Below are positions 9,461-60,075 of a stretch of DNA of 64,000 nucleotides, one piece after another. The DNA lies in assembly GCF_010747475.1 (NCBI RefSeq), contig NZ_VSLZ01000002.1, positions 1-64,000 on the forward strand, written 5' to 3'. The notes beneath the pieces are model-generated. The model worked only from the letters and a program-made list of their open reading frames with translations, was not told where the DNA came from and searched no databases. The position numbers and the translations under genes are program-made. The stretch comes from Halorussus sp. MSC15.2. GTDB taxonomy: Archaea; Halobacteriota; Halobacteria; Halobacteriales; Haladaptataceae. The first letter of the stretch is position 1, and every line of letters begins with the position of its first letter.

Positions 9461-10750
9461 ATGACGAGTTTCGACGGCGTCGCGCGCCGACTCGGTCGCG
9501 TCGGTCGCGGGGTTACGTTGGCCGCTCGAACCGTGGTACCCGTGGACACGAACCCGGTTCCGGCGGACTGGACACACGTCACCAAGGTAGACCCCGAGGA
9601 CGCCAAGAAAATCCCGCTGCTGTACCCCCTCTACCTGCGGCACACGAGCGCGGTGTCGGTCGGCGGGTCGGCCGACGTGACCGCACGCAACACCGAGGAG
9701 ACGTTCGCCCTCCTCGGTCCCGCTTCGGTACCGGTCTTCCACGAACCCAGCGGTCCGCGCCACGTCACGCTTCGGACCCGCGAGCAGGCCGACCTGCTCG
9801 CCATCCCCGAGGTGCTGAACGGCGACTCGGAGGCGCTCGTCGGGCAGTTGGGCGAGGCCACCGAGTACGTCCGCGAGGAGATGGTGCCCGACCTACTTGC
9901 CGACCGGACCCCGTGGCTCCCCGACTTCGCGGCCGACGCGCTCGCCGACTTCGCCACCTCGTGGCTGCTCGCCGACGCTATCTTCGAGGCCTACGTCATC
10001 CAGAACCCCGACAGCGCCGCGGCCCGCGAGGCCAACGTCACCGAGACCGACCTGCTCACGCCTCGCGAATCCAAACAGCGAGCCATGGCGGCCGAGCGCC
10101 ACCTCGAGAGCGAACTCGTCTACCTCGAATACTCGGGCACCTACGGCGGCGACGACGCCGCGGAGGCGTTGGCCACCATCTCCGAGGGGCTGACGTGGTC
10201 GCGACTCTGGTACGGCGGCGGAATCGACTCCCGCGAACGCGCCACCGCGATGCTCGACGCCGGCGCGGACGCCATCGTCGTCGGCGACGCCTTCCACCGC
10301 GTGGCCGACGAGGAGGCCGAACTCTGCGAGCGGGCGGCCGAGGAACTCGACCCGGCAACTCCTTCGTCTGCCGTCAGAGAGTGGGTCGACGAGAACCTCG
10401 CCGTCGCCGACTCTCACGCCGCGGCCTACCTCGCCACGATTCCGTCCGTCCCGCACCCCGAACGAGTGGCCGAGCGCTACTTGACCGCGACGGTCCGAAC
10501 GTGGCTCCGCCTGCGCGAACTGGTGGCAGACGGCGCTAGCGTCCGGGCGAGTTCCACGGAGCGGTCGGAGAACGGTCTGGACCTCGGGCGGACGCTCGGC
10601 GAGGACGCGAGCGACGAACTCGGGTCGGCCGACGCCGAACTGGTCCGACGCTGTCTGCTCGCACTCGTTGCCGACCGGAGCGACGCCGACGGTGTCTCGT
10701 CTCTCGACGTTCCGACCGACCACTTCGCACTCTCGCCGTCGTCGCTGTAG
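9461..10750 (+). CDS. Geranylgeranylglyceryl-phosphate-synthase-like (PcrB/GGGPS superfamily) protein with extra C-terminal domain
   Basis: The product is 429 aa from the ATG at 9461. The N-terminal 280 residues carry GGGPS/PcrB TIM-barrel signatures in order: HVTKVDPED (phosphate-binding strand 1), VGGSADVT, PVFHEPSGPRHVT, VYLEYSGTYGG and WYGGGIDSRERA followed by AGADAIVVGDAFH (standard phosphate-binding motif). Bona fide enzymes make the first ether bond of archaeal lipids from sn-glycerol-1-phosphate and GGPP. They are about 230-250 aa. This protein is longer, having an insertion of about 35 residues before the YLE strand and a helical C-terminal extension of about 150 residues. It may therefore be a paralogue with a different prenyl or phosphosugar substrate. 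The longer upstream frame overlaps the divergent gene and is rejected. Confidence 0.8.
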   Translation: MTSFDGVARRLGRVGRGVTLAARTVVPVDTNPVPADWTHVTKVDPEDAKKIPLLYPLYLRHTSAVSVGGSADVTARNTEETFALLGPASVPVFHEPSGPRHVTLRTREQADLLAIPEVLNGDSEALVGQLGEATEYVREEMVPDLLADRTPWLPDFAADALADFATSWLLADAIFEAYVIQNPDSAAAREANVTETDLLTPRESKQRAMAAERHLESELVYLEYSGTYGGDDAAEALATISEGLTWSRLWYGGGIDSRERATAMLDAGADAIVVGDAFHRVADEEAELCERAAEELDPATPSSAVREWVDENLAVADSHAAAYLATIPSVPHPERVAERYLTATVRTWLRLRELVADGASVRASSTERSENGLDLGRTLGEDASDELGSADAELVRRCLLALVADRSDADGVSSLDVPTDHFALSPSSL

Positions 10751-10887
10751 TGGGTAGACGCTCGTCGTTGCTCTGAACGACGATACAACGGCTTCTGCAG
10801 GGGTTTTACGACCCGTTTATCGGCGAACGAATGAAAAGCGTCTTAACTCAGTTTGTCAAAACGGATGTTCGTGGCGGTACACTACGC

Positions 10888-11061
10888 ATGAGTCTCGCCC
10901 GAAAACTCGCCCGTGTGGTCTGTGCTACCGACCCCGGTTCGGAGGAGACCTACGAGTGCAAGACCTGCGGTGCGACGTTCTCGCTCGACCGACAGACGTG
11001 CCCAGACTGCGGCGGTTGCACCATCGACCGCACCGACTGGGACGTCGTCGTCTCGGGATGA
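10888..11061 (+). CDS. Small zinc-ribbon protein
   Basis: Fifty-seven residues from the ATG at 10888 (MSLARKLARVV). An upstream in-frame ATG at 10831 gives an N-terminus unlike the family. Cys pairs at residues 24-27 (CKTC) and 38-41 (CPDC) form a classic treble-cysteine zinc ribbon in a 20-residue knuckle. Two more cysteines (12 and 44) flank it. Small ribbons of this type are widespread in haloarchaea and may act in nucleic-acid or protein binding. No partner is suggested by the neighbours. Confidence 0.75.
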   Translation: MSLARKLARVVCATDPGSEETYECKTCGATFSLDRQTCPDCGGCTIDRTDWDVVVSG

Positions 11062-11102
11062 GGGTTCGGTACGCCAGCACACGCCCGGTCGAAACCGCGG
11101 CG

Positions 11103-11110
11103 TTTAAAAT
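11103..11110 (+). promoter_or_regulatory. TATA box for tRNA-Arg
   Basis: TTTAAAAT lies 25-32 nt before the mature 5' end of the tRNA. Confidence 0.6.
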
Positions 11111-11134
11111 GGACCGGCCAGTAGGATAGGGTGC

Positions 11135-11209
11135 GGGCGCTTAGCTCAGTCTGGACAGAGTACTTGGCTTCGGACCAAGCTGTCGCGGGTTCAAATCCTG
11201 CAGCGCCCA
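11135..11209 (+). tRNA. tRNA-Arg, anticodon TCG
   Basis: A 75-nt cloverleaf: acceptor GGGCGCT pairs with AGCGCCC with discriminator A; D arm GCTCAGTCTGGACAGAGT; anticodon stem CTTGG/CCAAG around loop CTTCGGA (anticodon TCG, reading CGA); T arm GCGGGTTCAAATCCTGC. CCA is not encoded. A T-run follows directly. The low-GC restriction island begins about 120-440 bp downstream, and tRNA 3' ends are common integration sites, but I found no second copy of the tRNA 3' end near the far side of the island. Confidence 0.95.
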
Positions 11210-11325
11210 TTCGTTTTCCGAACGGTCTACGTTCGCGAGACGACGGTACATCGTTTTTAAATAAAACCGCCGTGCACACGTCTGATTCCGACCACAGTTC
11301 GGTATGCCCACGACGGAGTCATCAT

Positions 11326-11670
11326 CTACGCTTCGGTAGTGGCGCCGCCGCCGAGGAAGTTCAGTGCCGCGAGTTCGTCGCCCGCCTCTGTGAGGTGGTC
11401 GCACTCCCCCTCGGCCATGTGGCCATCTTCGACGAGAACCGTTCCTCGTTCGGAGAACCGATTCCTGTAATCTGTCGTGAGAACGAAGGCCGCGTGAAAC
11501 CGTGAACTGGTGGCCGTTTTCGAGTTCAATACGATACAGGTACCCTTCTCGAATCGGTTCGTCCGATGCGGGTATAGTGCCGAGACTGCACGTGGTTCGC
11601 TGAGGACGAAGGACTGATAACGTTGGTCTGGTTCCGTTCGAACAGCATGGGGATTCGCTTCATCGGTCAT
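11326..11670 (-). CDS. Hypothetical protein, possibly a winged-helix remnant
   Basis: A 114-residue frame with ATG at 11670, overlapping the first 24 nt of the methylase gene on the other strand. Most of the sequence is unremarkable. The C-terminal third (RFSERGTVLVEDGHMAEGECDHLTEAGDELAAL) resembles the wing and last helix of PhiH1-type winged-helix regulators, where a LTEAG-like segment is common. It may be the decayed end of such a regulator, or not expressed at all. It lies between the tRNA and the restriction operon. Confidence 0.35.
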   Translation of the reverse strand: MTDEANPHAVRTEPDQRYQSFVLSEPRAVSALYPHRTNRFEKGTCIVLNSKTATSSRFHAAFVLTTDYRNRFSERGTVLVEDGHMAEGECDHLTEAGDELAALNFLGGGATTEA

Positions 11671-12720
11671 AAGAAAAAACTCGTTTCTGATATCGTCTCT
11701 ATTATCGACTCTACTGTCGAGGACGGAACACAGGTTGGCGATTTTTTCACAGGAACCGGGAGTGTAGCTGCTTCACTCAAAAACGCCGGTTACTCGGTCG
11801 TAGCGAACGACCTCCTGACCCACTGCTGTATCTCTGCTCGCGCGCAACTTCGAAATCCTCCCCAACCGGAGTTCGAAATGCTCCTCGAGCAAGTCCCCGC
11901 AGTACAGGATGCAGGCAACCAGTTCATTCAACGGTCGGGTTACACACAGGTCTTGTCTTATCTGAATCAGCTAGATGGTGTAGAGGGTTTCATTTACTCG
12001 ACCTACTCACCGGGCGGTACGTCGAATCGAGAAGAGCCTCGCCAATATTTTACCGACGAGAACGCCAAAGCAATCGACGCGTGCCGCCAGAGAATTCACC
12101 GGTGGCACGACCAAAACTATCTATCCGACGATGAACACGCACTCCTACTATACGACCTCATTCGAGCCACGAACGAGGTTGCGAACACTGCGGGAACGTA
12201 CGGTGCTTATCTCAAATCTTGGTACGAACGGGCGAAGGAACCACTCGAACTCACTCCCGCCGAACTCCCGGAGGGTCCGTTAGAGCACGAGATTCAGCAA
12301 CGAGATGCGAACGAGTTAGCGAGAGAAACATCGTTATCAGCAGTGTATTTGGACCCGCCGTACACTAAGAGGCAGTACGCGTCTTACTATCATCTGCCAG
12401 AGACCATCGCCAAGAAGGAGAACCCATCTGTCTCTGGTAAAACTGGCCTACCAAACTGGGAGTCGAAGAGTTCCGATTATTGCCACAAGCGAAGGGCTTC
12501 GGGTCAGTTAGACGATTTGCTGTCCGCTTTGGATGCGGAGTACGTCTTTCTCAGCTACAGCGACGAAGGGCATATTACGCCAGACGAATTAAACGAGATT
12601 CTCTCGGAACACGGGGAGGTCGAACTACACACGTTCGACCACCGGAGGTACAAGAGCAATACCGAAGCAGATTCGGGCGACCTTACCGAGGCGCTCTACG
12701 TCGTCCAGTCGACTTCCTGA
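11647..12720 (+). CDS. DNA N6-adenine methyltransferase, Dam/D12 class
   Basis: The product is 357 aa from the ATG at 11647 (MGIRFIGHKKKLV), the usual short lead into a D12-class enzyme; the ATG at 11623 adds eight unlikely residues. The AdoMet-binding motif DFFTGTGS is at residues 32-39. The catalytic motif DPPYTKRQY lies at about residues 236-244, which marks N6-adenine specificity. The long segment between them is the expected target-recognition region. It is the first gene of a probable operon with the 193-aa protein, McrB and McrC. It most likely protects host DNA from the linked McrBC-type nuclease. The recognition sequence cannot be read from the protein. Confidence 0.85.
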   Translation: MGIRFIGHKKKLVSDIVSIIDSTVEDGTQVGDFFTGTGSVAASLKNAGYSVVANDLLTHCCISARAQLRNPPQPEFEMLLEQVPAVQDAGNQFIQRSGYTQVLSYLNQLDGVEGFIYSTYSPGGTSNREEPRQYFTDENAKAIDACRQRIHRWHDQNYLSDDEHALLLYDLIRATNEVANTAGTYGAYLKSWYERAKEPLELTPAELPEGPLEHEIQQRDANELARETSLSAVYLDPPYTKRQYASYYHLPETIAKKENPSVSGKTGLPNWESKSSDYCHKRRASGQLDDLLSALDAEYVFLSYSDEGHITPDELNEILSEHGEVELHTFDHRRYKSNTEADSGDLTEALYVVQSTS

Positions 12721-12765
12721 CCTCCTTGTCTTGGTATTATATGATAGTAGGCACTTCGAACCACC

Positions 12766-13347
12766 ATGGATACCCGTAACGTCGACCAAGTTCTCTGGAA
12801 ATATCTGACGATTACCGATTTCGGTGGGATGAACGGAATCTGGGAGGGCGATGACGGAGGCTCTGCGAAGCATATCCCGTTGTGGCCCTCCAAGCGGGAC
12901 GAAATCGCCGAATTCTTCGATGTCGCTCCGTTCCCACCGGAAGACCAGGACGTCGTTGACGAGCAAATCAATCTCGAACCGGTCGAGGGAGTTCCAGATT
13001 CCGAAGGGCCAATTAAAGTTTCCTGCAAACTCGACCGACGAGAAGGAGAGTGGCGGATAGCGAACCAGCACAACGACCGCTACGTACTTTGGACTCCGGA
13101 GCACGGGTTCCCGGCCAAGAACGAACTACCAGTTGAAGATGAGGACGATTACTACGATAGTAATCCACCGATTATCTACTTCGTGAAGGACGAGCAAGGA
13201 AACTTCCACGCACGGTCGGTAAACGACAGTTCGTACGAATCCCTCGAAGAGTACCCCGCGGAACTAGTACAATACTGGGAGAACGCAGGTAAGAGTAACA
13301 GCTTCGGAATCATCGATTTCCACGAGGACTCTGTCAAATCTCTCTAA
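12766..13347 (+). CDS. Unknown 193-aa protein of the McrBC operon
   Basis: An acidic soluble protein starting MDTRNVDQVLWKYLTITDFG, with no signal peptide, membrane span or recognisable catalytic motif. It begins 45 bp after the methylase and ends one base before the McrB start codon, so co-translation with McrB is likely. Aromatic-rich, strand-like segments (EWRIANQHNDRYVLWTPEHG, PPIIYFVKDEQGNFHARSV) suggest a mostly beta domain. Because the McrB that follows has no N-terminal DNA-recognition domain, I infer that this protein may supply target recognition in trans. That is a hypothesis from position and architecture; no family match is claimed. Confidence 0.75.
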   Translation: MDTRNVDQVLWKYLTITDFGGMNGIWEGDDGGSAKHIPLWPSKRDEIAEFFDVAPFPPEDQDVVDEQINLEPVEGVPDSEGPIKVSCKLDRREGEWRIANQHNDRYVLWTPEHGFPAKNELPVEDEDDYYDSNPPIIYFVKDEQGNFHARSVNDSSYESLEEYPAELVQYWENAGKSNSFGIIDFHEDSVKSL

Positions 13348-13348
13348 C

Positions 13349-14524
13349 ATGAGTCGGCCTTCTGTCACTACCCTCCGTGAGCGACTCGCTGCGAATCTAA
13401 ACGTACTACTGTATGGGCCACCGGGAACCGGTAAAACCGACTTGATGCTAGAGTTACAGCAACAGTTGGAGACCGAATCCGAAGCTGAGAGAGGTCCGAG
13501 CAGGGAATTTGATGCATCCTCAGTCGATAACCCCTTCGCCACGGGACCCCAAACCAACCGGGATAGGGATTTCCCCGGCGAGATTAGGACGGCGTGGTTG
13601 ACGTTCCACGAAAGTACAGGACACGAAGAGTTCGTCGTCGGCCTACGTCCGAAGCCCTCCGGGTCGGGGGTCGAATTACAACCTCGTGCCGGCACTCTGT
13701 TGTCATTAGCGGAGCATGCTCGTAATGGAAATACGAGCGTCCTCTTCATCGACGAGATTAACCGGGCGAACGTGTCCAAAGTATTCGGTCAATTTATCAC
13801 GCTCATGGAGCCTGATAAACGTCTGGACTCGGACGGCAACGCACAGCCGACTACAGTGGGGGTTACCTTTCAACAACTGAACGATGGGCAGGACATCGAG
13901 AACCCGCTGGGTGACGATTTCAGTATCGAATTCCCTTATCGACTCCCTCGGAATCTCTACGTTGTGGCTTCGATGAACTCCCTCGACCGCTCGACTGCGC
14001 CTCTAGACTCGGCTCTCGCGCGGAGATTTGACCAAATAAGTGTCTCACCGGATTACCAAGCACTGGCAGACTATCTGGGAATCGATAGTGACCCCGCAGA
14101 GATTAATCTCCCCGATGATGCAGAACGGGCTTCACCCGAAGAGATATCGATTGCGCTACTGTGGCGCATTAACCAGTTCCTTCGGAGTATCTACGGTGAC
14201 GACTTTCAGTTGGGTCCGGGATACGTTTGGTCAGTCGGTGAGACCGAAAGCGAGGAAGATGCTATCCACGCTCTCACCGAATCGTGGGATAGCCGCGTTC
14301 TTCCGAAGCTACGCGAGGTTTTCCGATCGAGAACCGACCAACTCGCTACCGTTCTGAAAGCCGGGGAGTCCCTAAACGGGGTCGAAAACCCCTACAAGCG
14401 TGACGAAATTCCTGCCGAATGGGGGAAAGTTGGAGCGGACGACCCACTTTCGTTACCGGAGTTACAGCAACAACCAGATGGGAACAAGCGAGCTATTCTT
14501 CACGGTCTAGCCGTCACTGAGTGA
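13349..14524 (+). CDS. mcrB: McrB-like AAA+ GTPase/ATPase of a restriction system
   Basis: A 391-aa protein that is almost only the AAA+ module. Walker A GPPGTGKT is at residues 23-30, Walker B VLFIDEIN at about 131-138, the McrB-family signature MNSLDRST at about 209-216 (McrB consensus MNTADRS), and an arginine-finger segment ALARRFDQI follows. Classical McrB carries an N-terminal modified-DNA-binding domain before the AAA+ core; here only about 20 residues precede Walker A. It overlaps the McrC gene by 4 nt (GTGA) and starts 1 bp after the unknown protein. It powers DNA translocation for the McrC nuclease. Confidence 0.9.
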   Translation: MSRPSVTTLRERLAANLNVLLYGPPGTGKTDLMLELQQQLETESEAERGPSREFDASSVDNPFATGPQTNRDRDFPGEIRTAWLTFHESTGHEEFVVGLRPKPSGSGVELQPRAGTLLSLAEHARNGNTSVLFIDEINRANVSKVFGQFITLMEPDKRLDSDGNAQPTTVGVTFQQLNDGQDIENPLGDDFSIEFPYRLPRNLYVVASMNSLDRSTAPLDSALARRFDQISVSPDYQALADYLGIDSDPAEINLPDDAERASPEEISIALLWRINQFLRSIYGDDFQLGPGYVWSVGETESEEDAIHALTESWDSRVLPKLREVFRSRTDQLATVLKAGESLNGVENPYKRDEIPAEWGKVGADDPLSLPELQQQPDGNKRAILHGLAVTE

Positions 14525-15804
14525 ATCTGAAGATGGTGCTCGTTCAGGAATACGGTGATTCCGTGCAAATCGAGGGCGACCCGGGCCGCCTCGTTCAGGC
14601 CTTCGACCACGCAGAGGAACACTGGTCGGCCCGACTCGGAACAGACGCTGTTTTCGATGTGTCTGCTACTGCTAAAGGGGTTGAAGTTAGACCCCTCGGT
14701 GTAACTGGTCAGGTCACGGTTGCGGGCGAGACTATCGAAATCGTCCCGAAATATCTGTTTCCAGAGGACATCGACGACTGGCACGGAAGTATTGCGGACA
14801 TACTCGCGTTCTCGCAAACAGAGAGTTTCGACTTAGTAAGTAGTGCATCAGGCGACCGAGACGTTTCTACGTTCGTCGATTTGCTTGCTGGTGCGTTTGC
14901 TGAGGAACTACGTGACAGCCTCCAGCATGGCCTTCCAACCGAGTACGTCCGGACCCGAGAAACTCGTGATACGGTCCGCGGACGACTGGTCACCGAAGAA
15001 CTGTATCCACAGGTTTTGAAGGACCCTACGAAGGTCGTCTGTGAGACGGACGAACTGTCCGTAGACACTGTGTTGGGACAGACACTCCGCTGGGCGGCTT
15101 ACGAATATGCGCACCTCACCACGGACCCAACTGTTCGCGGTGAACTGCTGGAATTAGAGACGCAGTTGTCAGAAGCCACACGAAGAACTCCCAGTTTAGC
15201 TGAATTAAATCGGTTATTCATCCCTCCCCAGTATCGGCGGTTTGAGCGAGCTGTCGAACTCGCCACTTGGCTTCGACGAAACGAGGGACCCACACTACGG
15301 GAGAGTGAACTCGAACTTCGGGGCGTTTTGATAAACACTCACGAGCTGTTCCAAGATTTCGTCGATGCCTGTCTGAGCTTTATAGCACACACCAGGTCGT
15401 GGGAGTTCGATTCGGAACCGTCGACTCATCTCGCTACGTCTCCTTCGAAACTAACCGCGTATCCGGACCACGTGATTCAGACGGCAGACGGTGGGATGGT
15501 CTTAGACTCGAAATACGTCGTCTCTGCGGACTGGTCGGACCCCGAATCTCGCGGGGAGGAGAGACCGAACCTGAACGAAGTGTACCAAGTCGTTGCGGCG
15601 GGACGCGCCATGGAAATCGAGGAAGTCGGCTTGGTGTATCCAGCTGTCGCAGGAGACTACGAAGGGCCATGGCAACTCGAAGGGTCGGGTCCCACCGTCA
15701 ATCTCCACCTGATAGAAATAGACCCCTCGAGATTCGAGTTCGAAAATATCGAAGCGTTCACCGACAGAACTCACTCGGCCTTGCAGGCGCTCATTCGAGG
15801 TTGA
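14521..15804 (+). CDS. mcrC: McrC-like restriction endonuclease subunit
   Basis: The product is 427 aa from the GTG at 14521, which overlaps the mcrB stop as GTGA; an ATG at 14533 is an alternative. The middle follows McrC family order: a beta-rich N-terminal domain with QVTVAGETIEIVPKYLF, a helical segment with TRETRDTVRGRL, and FIPPQYRRFERAVELATWL. The C-terminal PD-(D/E)xK nuclease core reads AYPDHVIQTADGGMVLDSKY at about residues 314-333, with the Asp...Asp-x-Lys pattern intact. It should form the nuclease that acts with the McrB ring. It ends 14 bp inside the convergent methylase gene. Confidence 0.9.
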   Translation: MNLKMVLVQEYGDSVQIEGDPGRLVQAFDHAEEHWSARLGTDAVFDVSATAKGVEVRPLGVTGQVTVAGETIEIVPKYLFPEDIDDWHGSIADILAFSQTESFDLVSSASGDRDVSTFVDLLAGAFAEELRDSLQHGLPTEYVRTRETRDTVRGRLVTEELYPQVLKDPTKVVCETDELSVDTVLGQTLRWAAYEYAHLTTDPTVRGELLELETQLSEATRRTPSLAELNRLFIPPQYRRFERAVELATWLRRNEGPTLRESELELRGVLINTHELFQDFVDACLSFIAHTRSWEFDSEPSTHLATSPSKLTAYPDHVIQTADGGMVLDSKYVVSADWSDPESRGEERPNLNEVYQVVAAGRAMEIEEVGLVYPAVAGDYEGPWQLEGSGPTVNLHLIEIDPSRFEFENIEAFTDRTHSALQALIRG

Positions 15805-18439
15805 GTTTCGCTTCGATATCTCTGAACGAAGAGAGGACTCGAGTTTTGTATTCGTAGTCCCCGTTCTCGTCTTCGTCTCGTCGACGAAGTGCACCGAAAC
15901 TGTCGACGACGTATTCGACCTCTTCTTCGGTTAAATCGTACAGATTGAAGAACAGGCCGTCCAGCTCAGCCCGAATCTGACGTCGTCGACTGGAATCCCA
16001 CTCGTATGGTTCGGACTGAAAACCCAGATTACTGCCCCACGCGTCTAAGTCCCGCGCAGTGTACGTCAACTCTGCAACGCGACTGCTTATCCAGTCCACG
16101 AGCGGTTCACCCTGAATTGTAGCGTCGTATCTCTCTGGAGGGAACACGGGAGTTTGTCGAACGATGTACCAGTTCAGGGTCACGTTCCCTATCTTTTGTC
16201 TGCACGCGAAATCGTACGCCATCGAGTTGAGATTTGCCAAGAGACAGGCGACGTAGCGGGGCGGTTCCGAGGTCAGAAGAAGGGGAAGCTTGTTCCCGAC
16301 GGCCGTTCTGGGCAGGACAGAGGCAATCATCGTCCGCGAATTAGTCGCACTGGTGATATCCTTGAAGCCGATAAACCAATCGTACTGATAGCCGTCCGGA
16401 ATCGCGGACTCGACCGTATCCTCGGGGAGGTAGTATCGGGCATTCACCGTGAAATCCGGGTCAGAGAGGCTATCTCTCTCCGTCGGTTCCTTCGTACCGG
16501 AGCGAAAGAGGTTACCGCTGGCGTCTTTCGCGTGTGAGGCGCGGTGGTTGTATTGATTTACCATCCGGCCTTCATATAGACGAAGGTACGCTTCATCGTC
16601 GAGTGTAATCTGGCCTTTCGAATCTCTCTGGCCCTCGGAGAGGTTCGTAATCGGCACAAATTTGTCGGAGTCCGTCGACATATCGAACATTCGCTCGTAA
16701 GAAACGTCCCACGGATTCACGTCCGCGTCAGTTCGGGATACTTCCGCATCACCGACGAGAATGGGCGCCTGCTGATGTTGCTTCTGGAGGATTTCGAGAG
16801 CGTTTTTCCCTCGGACGAGAGGTGCAGTCTTTGTTAGCGGGTTCAGTTCACCTATTTCGTCGGGGGACAGGCGAACGTGTTTAGCCGAATCGTCGATATC
16901 CGATGGCGTGTGAGCGAAGAACACGTAGTCCGCCGCTTCAGACTCGGGCCGATTTGTGAGCGTGAGCAGCGAGAATCGGGTTCTTCCGTCGACGTCGTCG
17001 AAGAGTTTCTCGCGGTTCTCGAAGTCGTAGAGTGAAACCAATTTACCTTCGGTGGTGAGGTGTTCGAAGAAGTCGCTCGTGTAGTAGTCCGTCGCGATAC
17101 CGGTGGGCACGATGAGCGAGCAATACCCATCGGGTGCAGCCAGTTGGAGAGAACGTTCCACGAACAAGCTGTAGAGGTTTAACATTCCGACATTAGTCCA
17201 CTGGTAGTCCGAGGAATTTCGAATCTCGTTCGCGTATGCCTTCGCCTGCTCGCGTGCCTGCTCCAAATCAGCCTGTATCTCCTCGTAATCGCCGTTCGAA
17301 ATTTTGGAACCTCGTGCCGCAGACGTTGCAATTTCGGCGAGTTGAGGCTGACGGGCGGCTAAGAACTCGCGGGTTTGAACCTTCACCCGCTCCCAAGGAG
17401 GGTTCGTGATGACGATGTCGAACCCGTCGGTTGCAGAAAAGACACTGTTGAACTCCTCGCCCCAGTTAATTTGCTGGAGTTCTTCGCGATAGGTAGTTCC
17501 TTCTTCACCACCCGCAACAACGTCGGAGAGGCGTTGTTGTCTAACAGGTCCGCGGAGAGAATCACCGACCACGAACCGGTCTGGATTGGGTCCGGGAGCA
17601 GTTAGGTCAAACTGTCCCTCGAACCAGAGAGCGGCTAAACAAGCCTCCGTAGAGAGACGATTAGCGTCGGCGCCGTAGAGGGATTCCTGTATAATCTCCT
17701 GTTTCGCGCGTTTGGTCGCCTTTCTACTCGGGTTGGAAGACCCTTCGATAGATTCTGCCACTGCTGGACTCAGCGTGTCTATGACGCCGAGTAGCATACT
17801 GCCAGTTCCGCAAGCCGGGTCCACGACACTGAGTGAGGAGAGGACGTCTCGAATCTTAGAGAAGTCCGTATTCTCGAAGGAGTTGCCTTCCCCGGGCCAG
17901 CAACCATAGCGTTCGCAGCGCTCGCGGAACTTCCGTTCTACCGCTTCCGTCGCGGCGCGCGTAGCCAACTCGACTGGTGTAAGATACGTTCCAGAGACGC
18001 GACGGTCGTCGTTGGCCGGTTCGTATCTCAGACTACCATCCGAATCTACTTGCGGTTGGTACTCCGTGAACGACTCGAGGGCATCACTAACTGCTTGGAA
18101 GACCACGCGATAGTCGTCCTGCCACGTACTGGAGTGAGCCGAAAGAATCTCAGCGACAGGCAGCGACTCTAAGTCGATAGCGTCGGTGTCGAAAAGCGGG
18201 AACAGAGCGTGCTGTGGATTTGAGGAGGCTTCTCGCCGAAGACTCTCCCACGCCTCTACTGGTTCGATATCGTTCTCTCTAGCGTACCCTGCGACGAGAA
18301 TCGATTGGAGAACGGCGCGTTTGCAATCGCGTTCAATCGCCTCGAAACTGTGTGTGGAACGGTCGACTTCGTCGATAGCCGTACGTACATATGTAGACAG
18401 AGCGTCGACGACAGGGGGAACAGTATTGTTTCCTACCAT
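15791..18439 (-). CDS. N6 DNA methyltransferase (Eco57I / type IIG-like), 882 aa
   Basis: The AdoMet motif VVDPACGTGSMLLG is at about residues 204-217 and the catalytic motif ITNPPWERV at about 343-351 (NPPW indicates adenine N6 methylation). These are preceded by YLTPVELATRA, typical of the N6_Mtase/Eco57I fold, and followed by a long target-recognition region rich in aromatic residues. The N-terminal 180 residues show no clear PD-(D/E)xK motif, so it may be methylase-only rather than a bifunctional IIG enzyme. It is shorter than PglX of BREX and lacks BREX neighbours. Being convergent with mcrC, it probably supplies the second-strand or second-site modification of this system. Confidence 0.85.
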   Translation of the reverse strand: MVGNNTVPPVVDALSTYVRTAIDEVDRSTHSFEAIERDCKRAVLQSILVAGYARENDIEPVEAWESLRREASSNPQHALFPLFDTDAIDLESLPVAEILSAHSSTWQDDYRVVFQAVSDALESFTEYQPQVDSDGSLRYEPANDDRRVSGTYLTPVELATRAATEAVERKFRERCERYGCWPGEGNSFENTDFSKIRDVLSSLSVVDPACGTGSMLLGVIDTLSPAVAESIEGSSNPSRKATKRAKQEIIQESLYGADANRLSTEACLAALWFEGQFDLTAPGPNPDRFVVGDSLRGPVRQQRLSDVVAGGEEGTTYREELQQINWGEEFNSVFSATDGFDIVITNPPWERVKVQTREFLAARQPQLAEIATSAARGSKISNGDYEEIQADLEQAREQAKAYANEIRNSSDYQWTNVGMLNLYSLFVERSLQLAAPDGYCSLIVPTGIATDYYTSDFFEHLTTEGKLVSLYDFENREKLFDDVDGRTRFSLLTLTNRPESEAADYVFFAHTPSDIDDSAKHVRLSPDEIGELNPLTKTAPLVRGKNALEILQKQHQQAPILVGDAEVSRTDADVNPWDVSYERMFDMSTDSDKFVPITNLSEGQRDSKGQITLDDEAYLRLYEGRMVNQYNHRASHAKDASGNLFRSGTKEPTERDSLSDPDFTVNARYYLPEDTVESAIPDGYQYDWFIGFKDITSATNSRTMIASVLPRTAVGNKLPLLLTSEPPRYVACLLANLNSMAYDFACRQKIGNVTLNWYIVRQTPVFPPERYDATIQGEPLVDWISSRVAELTYTARDLDAWGSNLGFQSEPYEWDSSRRRQIRAELDGLFFNLYDLTEEEVEYVVDSFGALRRRDEDENGDYEYKTRVLSSFRDIEAKLNLE

Positions 18440-19022
18440 GTTTCCTCAGACGAAGGGTTGTCTCTAACTGGGGCGATGTCTGGCTAAAAGGTATGGTTTC
18501 TACGACGCCGGTTCGCCGGCCTATCTTCATCCAGCGCTAAATCAAAAACCGTGTTCGTCAGAAGAGTTCGCTTGTCGGAATTACTCGTTGCACTCACAAC
18601 CCCGGATACAGGGTCCGAGATACCATAAGACGTCGGAACGAGTCGTTATCTCCACGACGCGACGACTGCGGGGACTGGCGAGTGTTCAATGTGGTCACCC
18701 TCCGACAGCATCGATGGGGAACTCGGACCTACTCCGAGCGTCCGTCTAGATGAATTCACGTGCCCATCTCGACTCGGTCACGGGAATCGGGTCGCGTAAG
18801 TAACCGTAGAATCCGAAGATGGTGACAACTATCCGCAAATAAAACGTGAGATGAGGGGTTTAGAAACCGACCCGGAGTCCCACGTGTCCAGTCGGAGAAC
18901 TCACGCTCTCGTCTCGGGGACGACCCCCAAACGGGCTTTATACCCGGTTGTTCGATGTGGACGCTCGTTCGTACGTGTGAACGACGCGAAACGACCACCG
19001 AGGCACCGACGCGGGGTCGCGC
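18440..19022. other. 580-bp gene-poor stretch at the far edge of the restriction island
   Basis: No ORF with haloarchaeal codon bias is present. A short hairpin CCGGTTCGCCGG lies near 18510, just upstream of the methylase start. I looked for a partial repeat of the tRNA-Arg 3' end (AATCCTGCAGCGCCCA) and found none. Confidence 0.5.
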
Positions 19023-19784
19023 TCACCCGCTCTCGTAGCCGCCGTCGACGACCAGACCGTGGCCGGTCACGTACGACGCGTGCTCGGAGAGGAGGAAGGC
19101 GACGCAGTCCGCGACTTCCTCGGGGTCGCCCAGTCGCTTGAGCGGGTACTGGTCGGCCATCTGCTCGCGCGCCCGGTCGGGATTCTCCCGGCCCTCGAAA
19201 TACGTGTCGGTCAGCGGCGTGTCGACGAAGCCCGGACACACCGCGTTCACCCGGACGCCGTGTGGCCCGGCCTCTTGTGCAGCAGCTCGCGAGAAGTTCA
19301 GTACGGCACCTTTCGTCAGCGAGTACACCGACTGGCCGGGGAGACCGAGTTTCCCCGCGATGGAGGACATGTTGACGACGGAGCCGTGTCCCTGTTCCTT
19401 CAGGAGCGGCAGGGCGGCGTGACAGCAGTTCCAGACGCCGTTGATGTTGACGTCCATCACGAAGTCGCGGACGCTCTCCTCGACATCCTCGATGGACTCG
19501 CCGGGGTGACCCACTCCCGCGTTGTTGAAGAGTCCGTCCAGACCGTACTCTTCGTGGGCGGCCTCGATTACACTCACTACCTGCTCGGGGTCGGTCACGT
19601 CGAGTTCGTGAGCCTCCGCCTCGCCTCCGTCTCCCCGGATGGTCTCGGCGACCTCTTCGGCACCGCCGGTGTTCACGTCGGTGACGAGCACCCTCGCGCC
19701 GTACTCGCCGCACCGTTTCGCCGTCGCCGCGCCGATTCCAGACGCTGCACCCGTAACGAGCACTGTCTTGCCATCTAGTCGCAT
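19023..19784 (-). CDS. Short-chain dehydrogenase/reductase
   Basis: A 253-aa classical SDR. The cofactor-binding TGAASGIG is at residues 11-18, followed by an Asp at the end of strand 2 (VTDVN) that favours NAD over NADP; NNAG is near residue 92; the catalytic Ser-Tyr-Lys triad appears as SSIAG and YSLTK near 156; the PG motif is in NAVCPGFVDTP. Full length with FabG-like organisation. The substrate is unknown; sugar alcohol, 3-oxoacyl or 3-hydroxyacyl compounds are all possible. It is co-directional with, but 140 bp from, the Lys/Glu-linker protein. Confidence 0.88.
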   Translation of the reverse strand: MRLDGKTVLVTGAASGIGAATAKRCGEYGARVLVTDVNTGGAEEVAETIRGDGGEAEAHELDVTDPEQVVSVIEAAHEEYGLDGLFNNAGVGHPGESIEDVEESVRDFVMDVNINGVWNCCHAALPLLKEQGHGSVVNMSSIAGKLGLPGQSVYSLTKGAVLNFSRAAAQEAGPHGVRVNAVCPGFVDTPLTDTYFEGRENPDRAREQMADQYPLKRLGDPEEVADCVAFLLSEHASYVTGHGLVVDGGYESG

Positions 19785-19924
19785 ACCTTACCTACGCACT
19801 CCTGTCGTATAACTTTACAACTCGTAGCGATGGTTCGATGGACCTTCGACGGGAGTACAGTACGACTGGTCGAGGACAGGGTGTGCGTCTTCGTCGGACA
19901 CCGACTCACTCGCTTACCGCCGCT

Positions 19925-20935
19925 CTACCCGTCCTCGGAACACGGTCCCCTCGAATCCCCGTGGTCGAGATGCTCTCGCAGCGCCGATTCGCTTCCCACG
20001 TGAATCGTGCGGGCGTTGTCTGGATTCCCCGGCGGTCTGTGACAGACCGTATACGACCCCTGCTCCTCCTCTTTCTTCCTTTCTTTCTCGCTCTGCTCCT
20101 CTTCTTTCCCTCCCTCGCTCTCCTTCCCTTCTTCCTTTTCCCCACCCTCGCTCTCGTTGCCACGCTTCTTCTCCTGCCCGCCTCCGCTCCGCTCGCAACT
20201 CCCTGTCGTGATTCGTATCGGTTCGCTCATGTCGAGCGAGACGCGGTCCGGGTCGTCCGGGAACCCCGAGAGGAACTGCCAGTCGGTGACCGTGCCATTG
20301 TAGTATTCGTCGTAGAGGGCGGCGTCCTCGTTGAAGGCCGGGTCGATGACTACCTCGAAGTCGTCGCCCAGTCCGCGGAACACGCCGCCGTCCGCGCCGC
20401 CGCCTCCCCACGTCCAATCGATGCGGTGGTCGGTTCCATCGACGTGCCACCTATCGTAGTTCTCCTGTTCCCCGCTGTTGGGGTCACGGTAGAGGTCGTC
20501 CTTGACGACCCAGTCACCGTCTTCTGGAAGTCCAGTGATTTCGAACGTCGCCGAACCCCTTCCCGAGTCTCCGGAGGACCCGTGGACGAAAACGAGACTC
20601 AGTCCTTTGGGACCCTGATAGAGGAAGACGATACTCGTCTGACGGCGCTGGAAGTCCAGCGTGCCCGCCGACGCGTACGGTGCAGTATCTCCGACGGACG
20701 CGCCGTTGGCGTCGCTGATGTACTCCTCCGGGAGTTGGTAATCGTAGAACGTCTTCACGGGCAACTGGCGGCGCATCGGTCGGACCGGGACGCACGTATC
20801 GCCCTGCACGAGGACGTATTGGGACTCCGTCCCGCGCGTCGCCACGGCCTCGGTTCCGAGTACTCCCGCGGCGAAACCGGTTCCGATGGTAGATAACAAG
20901 GTCCGCCGCGTCGGCGTCGATTTTCGCTTACCCAT
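19925..20935 (-). CDS. Tat-exported protein with Lys/Glu linker and C-terminal CHxPPGNP domain
   Basis: The product is 336 aa from the ATG at 20935 (MGKRKSTPTRRTLLSTIGTG); the upstream ATG at 20950 is possible. The RR-containing signal TRRTLLSTIGTGFAAGVLG looks like a Tat signal. A globular domain of about 200 residues follows, with one Cys pair. Then comes a very charged linker of about 55 residues made almost only of Glu, Lys, Gly and Ser. The last 35 residues start with YTVCHRPPGNPDNARTIHV and contain EHLDHGD and a final GPC. This small Cys/His module also occurs at the end of some bacterial secreted proteins, where its function is unknown. The protein is extracellular or surface-bound by inference. 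Confidence 0.7.
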   Translation of the reverse strand: MGKRKSTPTRRTLLSTIGTGFAAGVLGTEAVATRGTESQYVLVQGDTCVPVRPMRRQLPVKTFYDYQLPEEYISDANGASVGDTAPYASAGTLDFQRRQTSIVFLYQGPKGLSLVFVHGSSGDSGRGSATFEITGLPEDGDWVVKDDLYRDPNSGEQENYDRWHVDGTDHRIDWTWGGGGADGGVFRGLGDDFEVVIDPAFNEDAALYDEYYNGTVTDWQFLSGFPDDPDRVSLDMSEPIRITTGSCERSGGGQEKKRGNESEGGEKEEGKESEGGKEEEQSEKERKKEEEQGSYTVCHRPPGNPDNARTIHVGSESALREHLDHGDSRGPCSEDG

Positions 20936-55543: not shown

Positions 55544-55749
55544 ATTGGTCTCTCACGGCCGTTAGGCCCAGTGATTGAAGATAAATCGGGGAATCAGTAA
55601 AGCCTTTGCTATAGATTAGCAAGGATTGTTCATGAGGGTTACCCAGTAATGTCTAGTTTACCACCGTTTTCGTCCGCGTGTGACCCTCTCGTCTCGTCCG
55701 TGTTTTCGAATACTCACCCCCATTAATTGGCAAATCTCCAAACACTTAG

Positions 55750-55757
55750 TTTATATG
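55750..55757 (+). promoter_or_regulatory. TATA box for the PKD-type surface protein
   Basis: TTTATATG lies 24-31 nt before the ATG at 55781, which supports that start over the in-frame ATG at 55727. Confidence 0.7.
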
Positions 55758-55780
55758 TAAAAGGGTGGCAAACAACCCGC

Positions 55781-58700
55781 ATGTCGAAGTGGATGCTGGT
55801 CGCCCTCGTCGTGCTACTCGTCGTGACGCCAGTCACTTCCGGAACACTCCGTCCAAAGGACAGTGCGTCTCCCAACGAAACTCCGCTCGCAGATGCTGGA
55901 CTCGACCAAGAGGTGAAGAAGGGTGCGACGGTGCTGTTCGACGGTACTGGCTCTCGTGATTCGGACGGACGAATTAAACGGTACAACTGGTCGATTCGGA
56001 CGCCGGGTAACGAGACACTTGGCCCCGACTGTCCGACCTGCGCTCGAACGCGGTTCACGCCGAACGAAATCGGTCGGTACCGCGTCACGCTCACGGTAAC
56101 CGACGATAGCGGTACCACGAGTTCTGATACGCTCTACGTCGATGTCGCGTCCGGTACAGGTCCGACAATCTCCCTCTCCGGGCCGGACCGCCCGGACGTT
56201 GGTTCTACGGTGAACTACACTGCGAACCTCGACTCGGGGGCCGCTTCGCTCGGGTACGTCGTCTGGACCGCCGATGGTATCGTGATTGCCAATCACACCC
56301 TCTCGGCGGACCAACAGTCTGACACGGCGAGCAAGCACTTCCCGACCGCGGGCGAACGCACGATTACGGCGACCGTCTACGACACCGATAATCGTTCGAG
56401 TACGGCGTCGATATCGGTCGATGTACGGACGGACCCCCCGGATGAATCGCCGGGAACGAACCCTTCCATCGCAAACCGGAGTTCACCGACGGTAACTGGC
56501 GATAAAATCGTCACGGGGGGAGAACCGCTCCGAGGTGAGTACTCTGTTCGCCTCGATGCGGCCACTGACTCAATCGATTCCATTCGGTGGCGAAACGCGG
56601 CCGGTCGCGTCGGAACTGGGCGGTCGATAACTCGAACGTGGGAACCCGGTGACCACGAACTGTACGCTGTCGTAACGTACACCGACGGGTCGGAGAGCGT
56701 CGCGACGTTCGCCGACGGAACGACCACGGTCGTAGCCGACCCCCGACCGAACGTCTCAGTCACGTCGCTCGACGGACACGGTTCCATCTCGGGCAGTGTA
56801 ACCGGTATCGACGAGTATCGAAATCTCGACGCACTCGCCGTCCAAATCGACGGGGAGACCGTCGCAACTGCGCGCCCGACCCGCCGTGGTCACCGCCGGT
56901 TCGATTTCGACCGTCGGCGACAGGTCCACTTCTCACACACTGACTTTACGCCCGGTGAACGTCACTCGGTGACGGTCGTCGCTACCGACGAGCGCGGACA
57001 GACGACACGCGTAAGTCGAGACCTCGTTCCCGTCAAGCAACCGGAAGTCGTCCGGTCCGAGTTCGTCAACGACCCCGTTGATTCGTACCACTCACGTATT
57101 GACCCGAAACGGTACGCAGCGCATCACGTGTTGGAGATTAATCTAAATGGTGTCGAACCTAGTAATCTGAGTATAAGTACCGACCACGAGGACGAGTTTA
57201 TAAAGGTTCTCGAAGATGGTGCGTATACGAGAGAAAGAGAGTACAGCAATGGGAATCTTCTCGTACATACGTACTGGGCCGGCGAGAAGCCTAAGGAATA
57301 CGACCTGAGTATTCATCTATCTGCACTTTCACCAAGTAAAGAAACGAATTGGTCAAGTAGATACTCCGATAGCTTCAAAGTCACACCTAGTAAACCCGAA
57401 CTGAGACTGAACATCGTCAACGATGGGACGAAGAAATACATCACTAGGGAACACGGTATCCTAGTCGATGCGACCCGGTCGTTCGACCCCGACGGGACGA
57501 ACCTCAAGTACATCTGGAAGTACGGCGCTGAACCGACGAAACCCGACAACACGACGGCCAAGTTCAGTGCTTACGAGCGAGCAGCGAGTATCGTCGAGGA
57601 CCAGTACGACCTCAGAACGAAGCGGAACTTCGACTTCCTGAACTACTTCGTACCCGATATATCGGAGAGTACCGCTCTCGGTGACGGGCCGCACTATCAG
57701 AACGAGACGGTACGCGTCCGAGTGCAGACGGAACCGTACCACTTCTCCAAACAGACGTACTACCGCGATTTCTCGCTGGGTATCTCCGTGTCGAATCCCG
57801 CTGCGAGCGTTGTCGAGTGGAAAACCGTCGAGGCATCGAATAGTCGCCATTCCGAACCGACTGAAGACGCGTATCGATACGTCGGAATCGTCGAGATTCC
57901 TGCCGAGATACTCTCGACCGCTTCTGGGAGACCGACAGTAACCATCTACAACGAGCAGAATACGAGAAAGAGAGTCCGTACGCAAATCCCCGAAATCGGT
58001 ATTCTGGTCGAAGACGAGCGGTACTGGTCCAACGTCTCCGTACGGAATCTCACGTACTTGGTGGAGAAGCATCGCGTGCGCGAAGTCAAGGTCAACGACG
58101 AGCAACGACGTGATGAACTCCTCGAAGATGGGTACCGCGTGCAGGAAGTGGATAACAATACGAAATACGTCCTCGAAGAGTGGACCAAGGTTCGAGACGC
58201 GAAGTACGAGAAAGTAACAAAGACGTTCTCGGACAGACGTCAGCGGAACATGTTCCTCTCGTCGTCACCATCTTGGTATCGTGACGGGACGGTCCGAAAG
58301 GAGGAGACGCGGACGAGGGAGTACTCCAAGTGGTTCGACTCTTCGACGACGCCGTCCCCAAGACGGTGGTTCGATTCGAGTTTAGAGAACGGCGAACGGA
58401 CTGGAGCGACGCGTCGGGTCCAAGTCGAATCCGCCGAGTACAGAACGTTACGCCAGTACCGATACGATTACGAAGTCCAACGGACGGGAACCAGAACGGA
58501 AACCCGCTGTAGCCTCCGATTTGGATGCCGTGATGTAACCGTGAGGTACACGTACACGGTCACGAAGTCATCGACGTACTGGGCTAGTTCTAGTTACGGT
58601 GCGGGTCACACCTTTACGGGCAAAACGAAGCGGCGGAAGGTCGAGGACGCAGTGTACGAAACACGGTTCGAGGTGCGGTATCAGACACAGTTTACCGAAC

Positions 58701-59134
58701 TGGTCACGTACTTCAACGTGGCGCGAGACGAACAAGTGCAACCGGCCCAGTACGAGTGGAAAGCGAAAGCATCGACGATGGACTACGTGGCCGCTCGGAA
58801 GCAAGCGAGAACCAGCGATAGTTGGCGAATCGCTACGGAGACCGTGAAGAGATGGACTCTCGTTCGTAACGAGAGTACGTCGTCCTTCTGGACCTCTGTC
58901 TACTCGAACGAGAGTGAAGTGGTGAAGACGAAGGCGGTAGTCGCCGGTGAGTTCTCGAAGCAGTACTACAACTCGAAGACGGGGGAAACAGTCGAAAAAA
59001 GCGGCTATCGTTCGGTGGAACTCGTATATCCGACAGCGTGGCGGAGTGAAGCCATAATAGAAAAACTAACTAAAGAACAAGAAACTAATGAGTGGTGTGA
59101 AATAAAGCCTGCTTGCTCAGAGCAGGGGAGCTAG
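55781..59134 (+). CDS. Large secreted PKD-type surface protein with duplicated C-terminal modules
   Basis: The product is 1117 aa from the ATG at 55781 (MSKWMLVALVVLLVVTPVTS, a clear signal peptide). A PKD domain follows: ADAGLDQEVKKGATVLFDGT with SRDSDGRIKRYNWSI and RYRVTLTVTDDSGTTSSDT. Two or three further Ig/PKD-like domains reach about residue 440, with another PKD-like stretch DATRSFDPDGTNLKYIWKYG near 565. Past residue 730 the protein changes to Tyr/Arg/Thr/Trp-rich segments containing two similar modules, TGATRRVQVESAEYRTLRQY and TGKTKRRKVEDAVYETRFEV, about 70 residues apart. No C-terminal membrane anchor is seen. The next gene, 8 bp away, does have one, so the two may form a surface complex. 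Lower GC than the flanks suggests transfer. Confidence 0.85.
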   Translation: MSKWMLVALVVLLVVTPVTSGTLRPKDSASPNETPLADAGLDQEVKKGATVLFDGTGSRDSDGRIKRYNWSIRTPGNETLGPDCPTCARTRFTPNEIGRYRVTLTVTDDSGTTSSDTLYVDVASGTGPTISLSGPDRPDVGSTVNYTANLDSGAASLGYVVWTADGIVIANHTLSADQQSDTASKHFPTAGERTITATVYDTDNRSSTASISVDVRTDPPDESPGTNPSIANRSSPTVTGDKIVTGGEPLRGEYSVRLDAATDSIDSIRWRNAAGRVGTGRSITRTWEPGDHELYAVVTYTDGSESVATFADGTTTVVADPRPNVSVTSLDGHGSISGSVTGIDEYRNLDALAVQIDGETVATARPTRRGHRRFDFDRRRQVHFSHTDFTPGERHSVTVVATDERGQTTRVSRDLVPVKQPEVVRSEFVNDPVDSYHSRIDPKRYAAHHVLEINLNGVEPSNLSISTDHEDEFIKVLEDGAYTREREYSNGNLLVHTYWAGEKPKEYDLSIHLSALSPSKETNWSSRYSDSFKVTPSKPELRLNIVNDGTKKYITREHGILVDATRSFDPDGTNLKYIWKYGAEPTKPDNTTAKFSAYERAASIVEDQYDLRTKRNFDFLNYFVPDISESTALGDGPHYQNETVRVRVQTEPYHFSKQTYYRDFSLGISVSNPAASVVEWKTVEASNSRHSEPTEDAYRYVGIVEIPAEILSTASGRPTVTIYNEQNTRKRVRTQIPEIGILVEDERYWSNVSVRNLTYLVEKHRVREVKVNDEQRRDELLEDGYRVQEVDNNTKYVLEEWTKVRDAKYEKVTKTFSDRRQRNMFLSSSPSWYRDGTVRKEETRTREYSKWFDSSTTPSPRRWFDSSLENGERTGATRRVQVESAEYRTLRQYRYDYEVQRTGTRTETRCSLRFGCRDVTVRYTYTVTKSSTYWASSSYGAGHTFTGKTKRRKVEDAVYETRFEVRYQTQFTELVTYFNVARDEQVQPAQYEWKAKASTMDYVAARKQARTSDSWRIATETVKRWTLVRNESTSSFWTSVYSNESEVVKTKAVVAGEFSKQYYNSKTGETVEKSGYRSVELVYPTAWRSEAIIEKLTKEQETNEWCEIKPACSEQGS

Positions 59135-59142
59135 CCACTGGC

Positions 59143-60075
59143 ATGAACTGGAAGACCTCGTACGTCGTCGCGTTGATGGTACTCGCTCTACTGACTTGCT
59201 TACAAGTCGGTGCAATCGACACTAGATACGCGAACAATGCCGAGACTCCGGCAGAAGTTTCGTCGTCTGGTGGCGTCGAATATCGCGTCTCACTCGATAC
59301 TAACGCCTCCACAGTGTTGGTCGAGTACGAGAATCCGTCTGACGATGAAATTGAACATGCAGGATATGTTGTAACAGTAGATAGACAGCAAGTATATGAG
59401 TCAGAATTCAACCTCTCGGAAGAGGAACACCGAACAAAGAGGATAAACATCACGTCTGGAATAAATGTTAATCAGGACGAACACACCGTCACGTTCTCGA
59501 CGTTCGGCGGACATGCGTATCTCAATTTCACCCGGAGTATCGACTCCGCCGACTCGGGTCAGATACCGACCCCGTACATCTCGGACGTGAACCTCACGAA
59601 GGGAACAGTCGATGGTGCGCCGTCAGCAGTCGCAAACGTGACCCTCGTGAATCCCTCGAAACAACTCTACGGGACCAAACTCATGGTCCACACCACCGGG
59701 ACCGACGGAAGTTACTATCCCGCGTCGGTCCGACCGGGTGACTCGCGGACCATCACGGTCGAACTCCTCGACAATCGCGGTGCGAAAATCGCGGGCGAGG
59801 CGCGCCTCTACACTGGCAACATGACGACGAGAGAGGGTGCTATCGACCAAGTCGAGTTCGCCGGGCAAACGAGAACGGAGACTCGCGTATGGAATAGTTC
59901 GTACGAGCCTGTCAAACCGACGTGGATGGACGACCACTACCAGTATCACAACGACAGTTACGCTCGAAGCCGCGCCGAGAAAATCAGCGGCGGTCACGAA
60001 GTGGCTGGCGTACCACTGGCGTATTTCGCTGTGGCGGTTTTCGTCGGGTTGGTAGTTCTCCGAAGACTCCGCTGA
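59143..60075 (+). CDS. Membrane-anchored extracellular partner protein
   Basis: The product is 310 aa from the ATG at 59143 (MNWKTSYVVALMVLALLTCL, signal peptide). The extracellular part is beta-rich with several N-glycosylation sequons (NAS, NLS, NIT, NFT, NLT, NVT, NMT). TVLVEYENPSDDEIEHAGYV and SAVANVTLVNPSKQLYGTKL look like Ig-fold (CARDB-like) strands. One C-terminal helix (VPLAYFAVAVFVGLVVLRRLR) with a basic end anchors it with the tail inside the cell. It is 8 bp downstream of the PKD-type gene and of similar composition, so the two form one operon. Function unknown; adhesion or cell-envelope assembly are possible roles. Confidence 0.8.
   Translation: MNWKTSYVVALMVLALLTCLQVGAIDTRYANNAETPAEVSSSGGVEYRVSLDTNASTVLVEYENPSDDEIEHAGYVVTVDRQQVYESEFNLSEEEHRTKRINITSGINVNQDEHTVTFSTFGGHAYLNFTRSIDSADSGQIPTPYISDVNLTKGTVDGAPSAVANVTLVNPSKQLYGTKLMVHTTGTDGSYYPASVRPGDSRTITVELLDNRGAKIAGEARLYTGNMTTREGAIDQVEFAGQTRTETRVWNSSYEPVKPTWMDDHYQYHNDSYARSRAEKISGGHEVAGVPLAYFAVAVFVGLVVLRRLR

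Follow-up and report, generated by a model that had tools for sequence, protein, structure and literature searches.

The window analysed here is a 64,000-nucleotide stretch of DNA from Halorussus sp. MSC15.2 (contig NZ_VSLZ01000002.1, positions 1 to 64,000), and between positions 11647 and 18439 it carries a cassette of five genes, all of them open and intact, that encode two DNA methyltransferases (MTases) of adenine type, a small protein that we term ORF2, an McrB-like NTPase and an McrC-like nuclease. McrBC is the textbook modification-dependent nuclease. We conclude that this cassette is very probably a complete and mobile Type II-like restriction-modification (RM) system that uses the McrBC motor-nuclease in the manner of LlaJI, LlaI and BsuMI, with the methylases protecting a target site and ORF2, McrB and McrC together cutting DNA in which that site is unmodified.

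The first gene (11647–12720, forward strand) encodes a 357 amino acid (aa) D12-class N6-adenine DNA MTase of the FokI/LlaI-type D12 family (PF02086, E 1.4e-37; PADLOC MTase_II, E 3e-76), with its DFFTGTG and DPPY motifs intact. It is followed on the same strand by ORF2 (12766–13347; 193 aa), which is predicted from an AlphaFold model and its fold matches in the PDB to be a stand-alone B3-like DNA-recognition protein, and by a gene for a 391 aa McrB-like AAA+ NTPase (13349–14524, forward strand; AAA_5, E 2.7e-15; E. coli McrB NCBIfam model, E 1.9e-21; McrB of PDB 6hz4, E 6e-21) that retains Walker A (GPPGTGKT), Walker B (VLFIDE) and the NxxD signature (MNSLDRS). The mcrB reading frame shares 4 bp with that of mcrC (14521–15804, forward strand), the product of which is a 427 aa PD-(D/E)xK nuclease (PF10117, E 1.1e-33) that aligns to Thermococcus McrC (6ut5_G, E 6.5e-4), the PD...LDxKY residues included. 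The fifth gene lies on the reverse strand (15791–18439) and encodes an 882 aa Eco57I-type N6-adenine DNA MTase (PF07669, E 4.7e-19; PF02384, E 2.7e-5; TIGR02987, Alw26I-type, E 1.9e-22) with intact DPACGTG and NPPW motifs. This protein has no nuclease-domain match in Pfam, and a Type IIG enzyme was therefore rejected. mcrC and the convergent N6 MTase gene overlap at their 3' ends by 14 bp (15791–15804). Both this overlap and the gene composition agree with a first-pass annotation of the same DNA, which had described McrB and McrC genes in an operon with a D12 methylase and convergent with an 882 aa N6 methylase.

We next consider how far the set is conserved. An McrC relative is present in 57 of the 391 genomes of the class Halobacteria, but the only close one besides the window's own is that of the congener G374 (71% identity), the remainder having at most 34% identity and mostly 22–30% over partial lengths. 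G374 holds all five genes with order and orientation kept, at protein identities of 79, 62, 73, 71 and 67% for D12, ORF2, McrB, McrC and the N6 MTase, and there too the mcrC and N6 MTase genes converge with an overlap, in this case of 47 bp. The same five-gene set is carried by G706, a third genome of the genus. Since all five genes are kept in order and orientation in both congeners, the gene set is not a chance assembly. Between the window and G374 the nonsynonymous divergence (dN) is 0.16–0.31 whereas the synonymous divergence (dS) is saturated, indicating purifying selection on each of the five genes.

Linkage outside the archaea was assessed by searching the window D12 and the window McrB separately against 72,556 plasmids, and it is these searches that provide the unbiased check. 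Both converged near the tops of their lists on the same records, from Citrobacter, Sphingobium and Pimelobacter, in which an operon encodes in turn a D12 MTase, an N-6 methylase of ~740 aa, a ~190 aa protein, an AAA ATPase and McrC; the copy in S. baderi is split by insertion sequence (IS) elements. The window D12 is 34–41% identical to the D12 genes of the bacterial McrBC cassettes. A further scan, with cassette D12s as seeds and one genome taken per species, gave 80 loci, 65 of which contain McrBC. Every one of these (65/65) also has a second methylase, which is of Eco57I type in about 49, of EcoRI type in 15 (PF13651; the two that were scanned gave E about 1e-135) and of N6_N4 type in one, from Pseudoalteromonas (L142), where it is convergent like that of the window. 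No C5-methylase motif was seen among the second methylases of the 65 McrBC loci, all being of the adenine/amino type. Of the other loci, nine are tandem, FokI-like D12 pairs without McrBC, and the last six also lack McrBC, at contig ends or through decay or fragmentation, except for L181, where there is no evident reason. The exact order seen in the window, D12-ORF2-McrB-McrC-N6, is found in Massilia mucilaginosa (L127) with all genes on the same strand, and the EcoRI-type cassettes include some of the nearest relatives of the window's McrB (33–38%) and ORF2 (22–25%, E down to 4e-7). As judged from their sequences, cassettes of D12, a second methylase, a ~190 aa protein, McrB and McrC occur across several bacterial phyla. 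The first-pass annotation had envisaged that its proposal would fall if the methylases had no conserved linkage to McrBC elsewhere; the neighbourhood search finds this linkage in many genomes besides that of the window. A permuted order, McrB-McrC-D12-N6, was observed in Lachnospiraceae (L125:5072–11550, and L124), where McrB is longer (546 aa) and may carry a fused reader domain.

These distributions bear on whether the genes could simply be neighbours in a defence island, that is, a classical Type IV, modification-dependent McrBC whose proximity to two solitary or unrelated methylases is accidental. Such an origin would fit the low-GC region adjoining a tRNA gene in which the cassette lies, the replacement of the cassette by other genes in the near relative G703, and the frequent occurrence of McrBCs outside this cassette in Halobacteria, as the 57 genomes with an McrC relative indicate. 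However, this gene set is found repeatedly in different phyla, its genes closely spaced, and an enzyme that reads N6-methyladenine would conflict with its own methylases. Moreover, Walker A stands almost at the start of the window McrB, so that the recognition domain of other McrBs is absent; the protein has no DUF3578, EVE, YTH or any other N-terminal domain, and no DUF3578 or EVE/YTH modified-base reader was found in any of the five proteins with Pfam, PADLOC or NCBIfam. With two linked MTases, a conserved linkage and no modified-base reader, we rejected a Type IV enzyme with bystander methylases as quite unlikely. A quick tree, which should be read with caution, was made from the window pair of McrBs, those of the MTase-associated cassettes, 53 other halobacterial McrBs and the McrB of LlaI. 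The window pair grouped with the MTase-associated cassettes (support 85–90) and apart from the 53 halobacterial McrBs, albeit with long branches, and the LlaI protein sat on a very long branch (LlaJI and BsuMI were not included). One halobacterial McrBC, in G177 (L087:3027–9329), is flanked by a 403 aa ORF with C5-methylase-like motifs and by a divergent 396 aa ORF with DPPY, and may be a further McrBC system under methylase protection, from a different lineage.

If McrB itself has no recognition domain, ORF2 is the candidate for target reading. ORF2 has no sequence match in Pfam, PADLOC, NCBIfam or the PDB, although it is homologous to ORF2 of the cassettes with an EcoRI-type methylase (blastp E 2e-4 to 4e-7). 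An AlphaFold model built from 17 homologues has a predicted local distance difference test (pLDDT) score of 84, and its seven best fold matches in the PDB are all B3 domains, among them those of UbaLAI, ARF1 and LEC2, with the UbaLAI restriction endonuclease B3-DNA structure at the top (E 6e-3, probability 0.99). In LlaJI, the McrB-like subunit carries a fused B3 domain that reads an unmodified asymmetric site. Taken with the B3-like model of ORF2, this makes a detached B3 reader the most economical reading, and we predict that ORF2 has this role, while regarding the E value of the fold match as a lead rather than proof. In the model of the analogous ~190 aa protein of the bacterial cassettes, the structural elements follow a similar order, and the B3 matches are weaker (TEM1, UbaLAI). 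When profiles of the archaeal ORF2 family and the bacterial 190 aa family were compared, the probability was 3.7%, which does not show sequence homology, and the link between the two is therefore confined to a similar predicted topology and the B3-like lead.

Small DNA-binding controllers are found in many RM systems, and the B3 fold occurs in plant transcription factors too. It could thus be that the cassette is an RM system as proposed but that ORF2 is a transcriptional controller, with the target read by McrC or elsewhere. We consider this unlikely, since mcrB is usually directly preceded by ORF2 or by the analogous ~190 aa protein in the cassette loci, and since the adjacent McrB is without exactly the domain that LlaJI has at its N-terminus.

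Conserved linkage to methylases, an McrB without a modification reader and a B3-like ORF2 together make attack on unmodified DNA the best reading of the cassette, in line with the first-pass suggestion that the McrBC ring is here turned against DNA that lacks the modification. The D12 and Eco57I-type methylases would place N6-methyladenine on a specific target wherever it occurs in host DNA, and this target is most likely an asymmetric site with one methylase for each strand. Two adenine-type methylases of different families beside McrBC would suit such a site because its strands need separate enzymes, as for LlaJI and FokI/LlaI; methylases of the FokI/LlaI type have two D12 domains in one protein. 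ORF2, as a detached B3-like domain, would recognise the unmodified site and deliver the DNA to the AAA+ ring of McrB, which by homology would be driven by GTP and, once activated by McrC, would translocate, and the PD-(D/E)xK centre of McrC would then cut the DNA. Host DNA would be spared because both its strands are methylated, whereas incoming viral or plasmid DNA would not.

In a 2008 analysis, LlaI, BsuMI and LlaJI were placed in a 'type II R-like' subfamily of McrBC that cuts unmethylated DNA and has paired type IIS methylases (PMC2614495). The window cassette shares with this subfamily an NxxD McrB, an McrC with a PD-(D/E)xK nuclease and a conserved linkage to a pair of MTases. LlaI, from Lactococcus plasmid pTR2030, has a McrB-like protein of 337 aa and a cassette with three restriction ORFs (PMC1459862). 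This plasmid-borne system (M.LlaI plus its restriction ORFs) resembles that of the window in its McrB-like subunit without a recognition domain, its McrC-like nuclease and its D12/FokI-type adenine methylase; it differs in having a FokI-type methylase instead of D12 plus Eco57I-type enzymes, and the two McrBs are only ~27% identical over 130 aa, with McrC and the small ORF not detectably similar. A plasmid copy (L206), which we call LlaI-like on the basis of a 337 aa AAA gene, a LlaJI-family nuclease and abiA nearby, contains D12 fragments that are 30–35% identical to the window D12. With its D12/FokI-type methylase and McrBC-like genes, LlaI is a bacterial precedent, dating from 1995, for McrBC restriction with adenine protection. 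The first-pass annotation had held that the McrBC-like precedents make 5-methylcytosine, which the FokI-type (adenine) methylation of LlaI contradicts, and that adenine methylation would be a distinct arrangement, which is not borne out given LlaI and dozens of bacterial cassettes that likewise combine two adenine-type MTases.

LlaJI (Lactococcus/Helicobacter) is likewise an McrBC-like enzyme with two MTases and a B3 recognition domain that cuts an unmodified asymmetric site, but its B3 domain is fused to the McrB-like subunit, it has no ORF2, and its MTases make 5-methylcytosine. BsuMI of Bacillus subtilis, which was compared by description only, has three restriction ORFs, one for a 343 aa McrB-like protein, and paired MTases; these are cytosine MTases. 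In Pectobacterium, the McrBC-like endonuclease of PcaI, with its linked methylase, has been found experimentally to restrict unmethylated DNA in vivo (PMC8989522); unlike the window cassette, PcaI has a single, Dcm-like 5-methylcytosine MTase and a recognition domain fused to the McrB-like subunit. The Type IV McrBCs of E. coli and Thermococcus share the NxxD AAA+ motor and the McrC nuclease core with the window proteins, but are modification-dependent, have no MTase and contain a fused reader (DUF3578 or YTH) in McrB. CoCoNuT systems differ in their NxD McrB signature and coiled coils, the 391 aa McrB of the window having NxxD (MNSLDRS). A 2024 census notes NxxD branches of McrB with predicted DNA MTases nearby and defers the details (PMC11090510).

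Several points weigh against the RM interpretation. The case for it is made from gene content, intact motifs, conservation of the set and the predicted fold of ORF2, the B3 match of ORF2 is weak (E 6e-3, template modelling (TM) score about 0.4–0.5), and because the D12 scan was seeded with cassette genes, 65 of 80 is not an unbiased linkage rate. In addition, the window N6 MTase is only ~25% identical to its counterparts in the bacterial cassettes and is closer to DISARM-like MTases (~35% over the C-terminal two thirds), so that its status as a cognate methylase rests mainly on the three congeners and Massilia.

The cassette might also be pictured as a cut-down DISARM-like or BREX-like system, with the Eco57I-type methylase drawn from helicase-based exclusion and McrBC an accessory. 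The closest longer relatives of the 882 aa MTase, of ~1340 aa, do stand beside SNF2 and DEAD/MZB (YprA-like) helicases, McrBC occurs in six of their loci, and McrBC is also recorded alongside DISARM-like systems in the 2024 census (PMC11090510). Yet among the five genes and the neighbours examined there is no helicase (DrmA included), DrmB, DrmC, PglZ or BrxC, the window MTase is without most of the N-terminal part of the ~1340 aa MTases, and D12 and ORF2 are absent from those helicase-MTase loci. Membership of DISARM or BREX was rejected for want of these components, and we regard this origin as highly improbable. The six halobacterial loci (L044–L049, in G137, G050, G108, G215, G266 and G167) have McrB of ~843–861 aa and McrC joined to an SNF2-type helicase of ~950 aa, together with the ~1340 aa Eco57I/MmeI-type methylase and mostly a long helicase, and they probably correspond to the DISARM-like branch of McrBC in the 2024 census; six other genomes have the SNF2-methylase-DEAD/MZB trio but no McrBC with it. 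On Deinococcus radiodurans pMP1 (L114:6786–17467) a DISARM-like helicase-methylase locus lies near McrB and McrC genes, with its methylase gene broken and an IS630 element nearby.

For the preferred interpretation, an RM system built on McrBC, we found no description in the openly searchable literature (REBASE lay outside the search) of this specific conserved cassette, with its separate B3-like protein, exchangeable second methylase and archaeal member. The archaeal member, the predicted detached B3-like reader and the apparently exchangeable second methylase would be the new points. Whether such loci make up a widespread, undescribed McrBC RM class of bacteria and archaea, with a detachable B3-like reader, a second adenine methylase swapped freely among Eco57I, EcoRI and N6_N4 types, and McrBC re-aimed at unmodified DNA, is in our view evenly balanced. 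The cassette would illustrate how one motor-nuclease core can serve different readers and opposite logic, and as a simple five-gene system it would allow recognition by ORF2, motor function of McrB and nuclease activity of McrC to be studied separately. An archaeal example would also bear on transformation barriers in haloarchaea.

The cassette is located between a tRNA-Arg (tcg) gene (11135–11209, forward strand; ARAGORN), which is conserved in G703, and an SDR oxidoreductase gene, in a region of 53–56% GC where most of the window has 62–73%. In blastn, G703 matches the window at 10082–11218 (93%) and 18994–20860 (90%) with nothing between, which together with the low GC delimits a variable region at 11219–18993. 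A flanking direct repeat or attachment-site repeat was sought at the ends of this region and not found. At the corresponding site G703, a congener that lacks the D12 gene, has not the cassette but two other genes, for proteins of 465 and 511 aa (L218:1350–4541), so the tRNA-Arg region looks like a site of turnover. In G374 and G706 the cassette lies at a different genomic place; this, with the other genes in G703, suggests that the cassette moves and that the tRNA-adjacent region is a variable site. A second low-GC stretch of the window (55727–60075), read by eye, encodes a predicted 1135 aa protein of secreted or surface-like character with PKD-like repeats, and a 320 aa protein with a C-terminal membrane segment.

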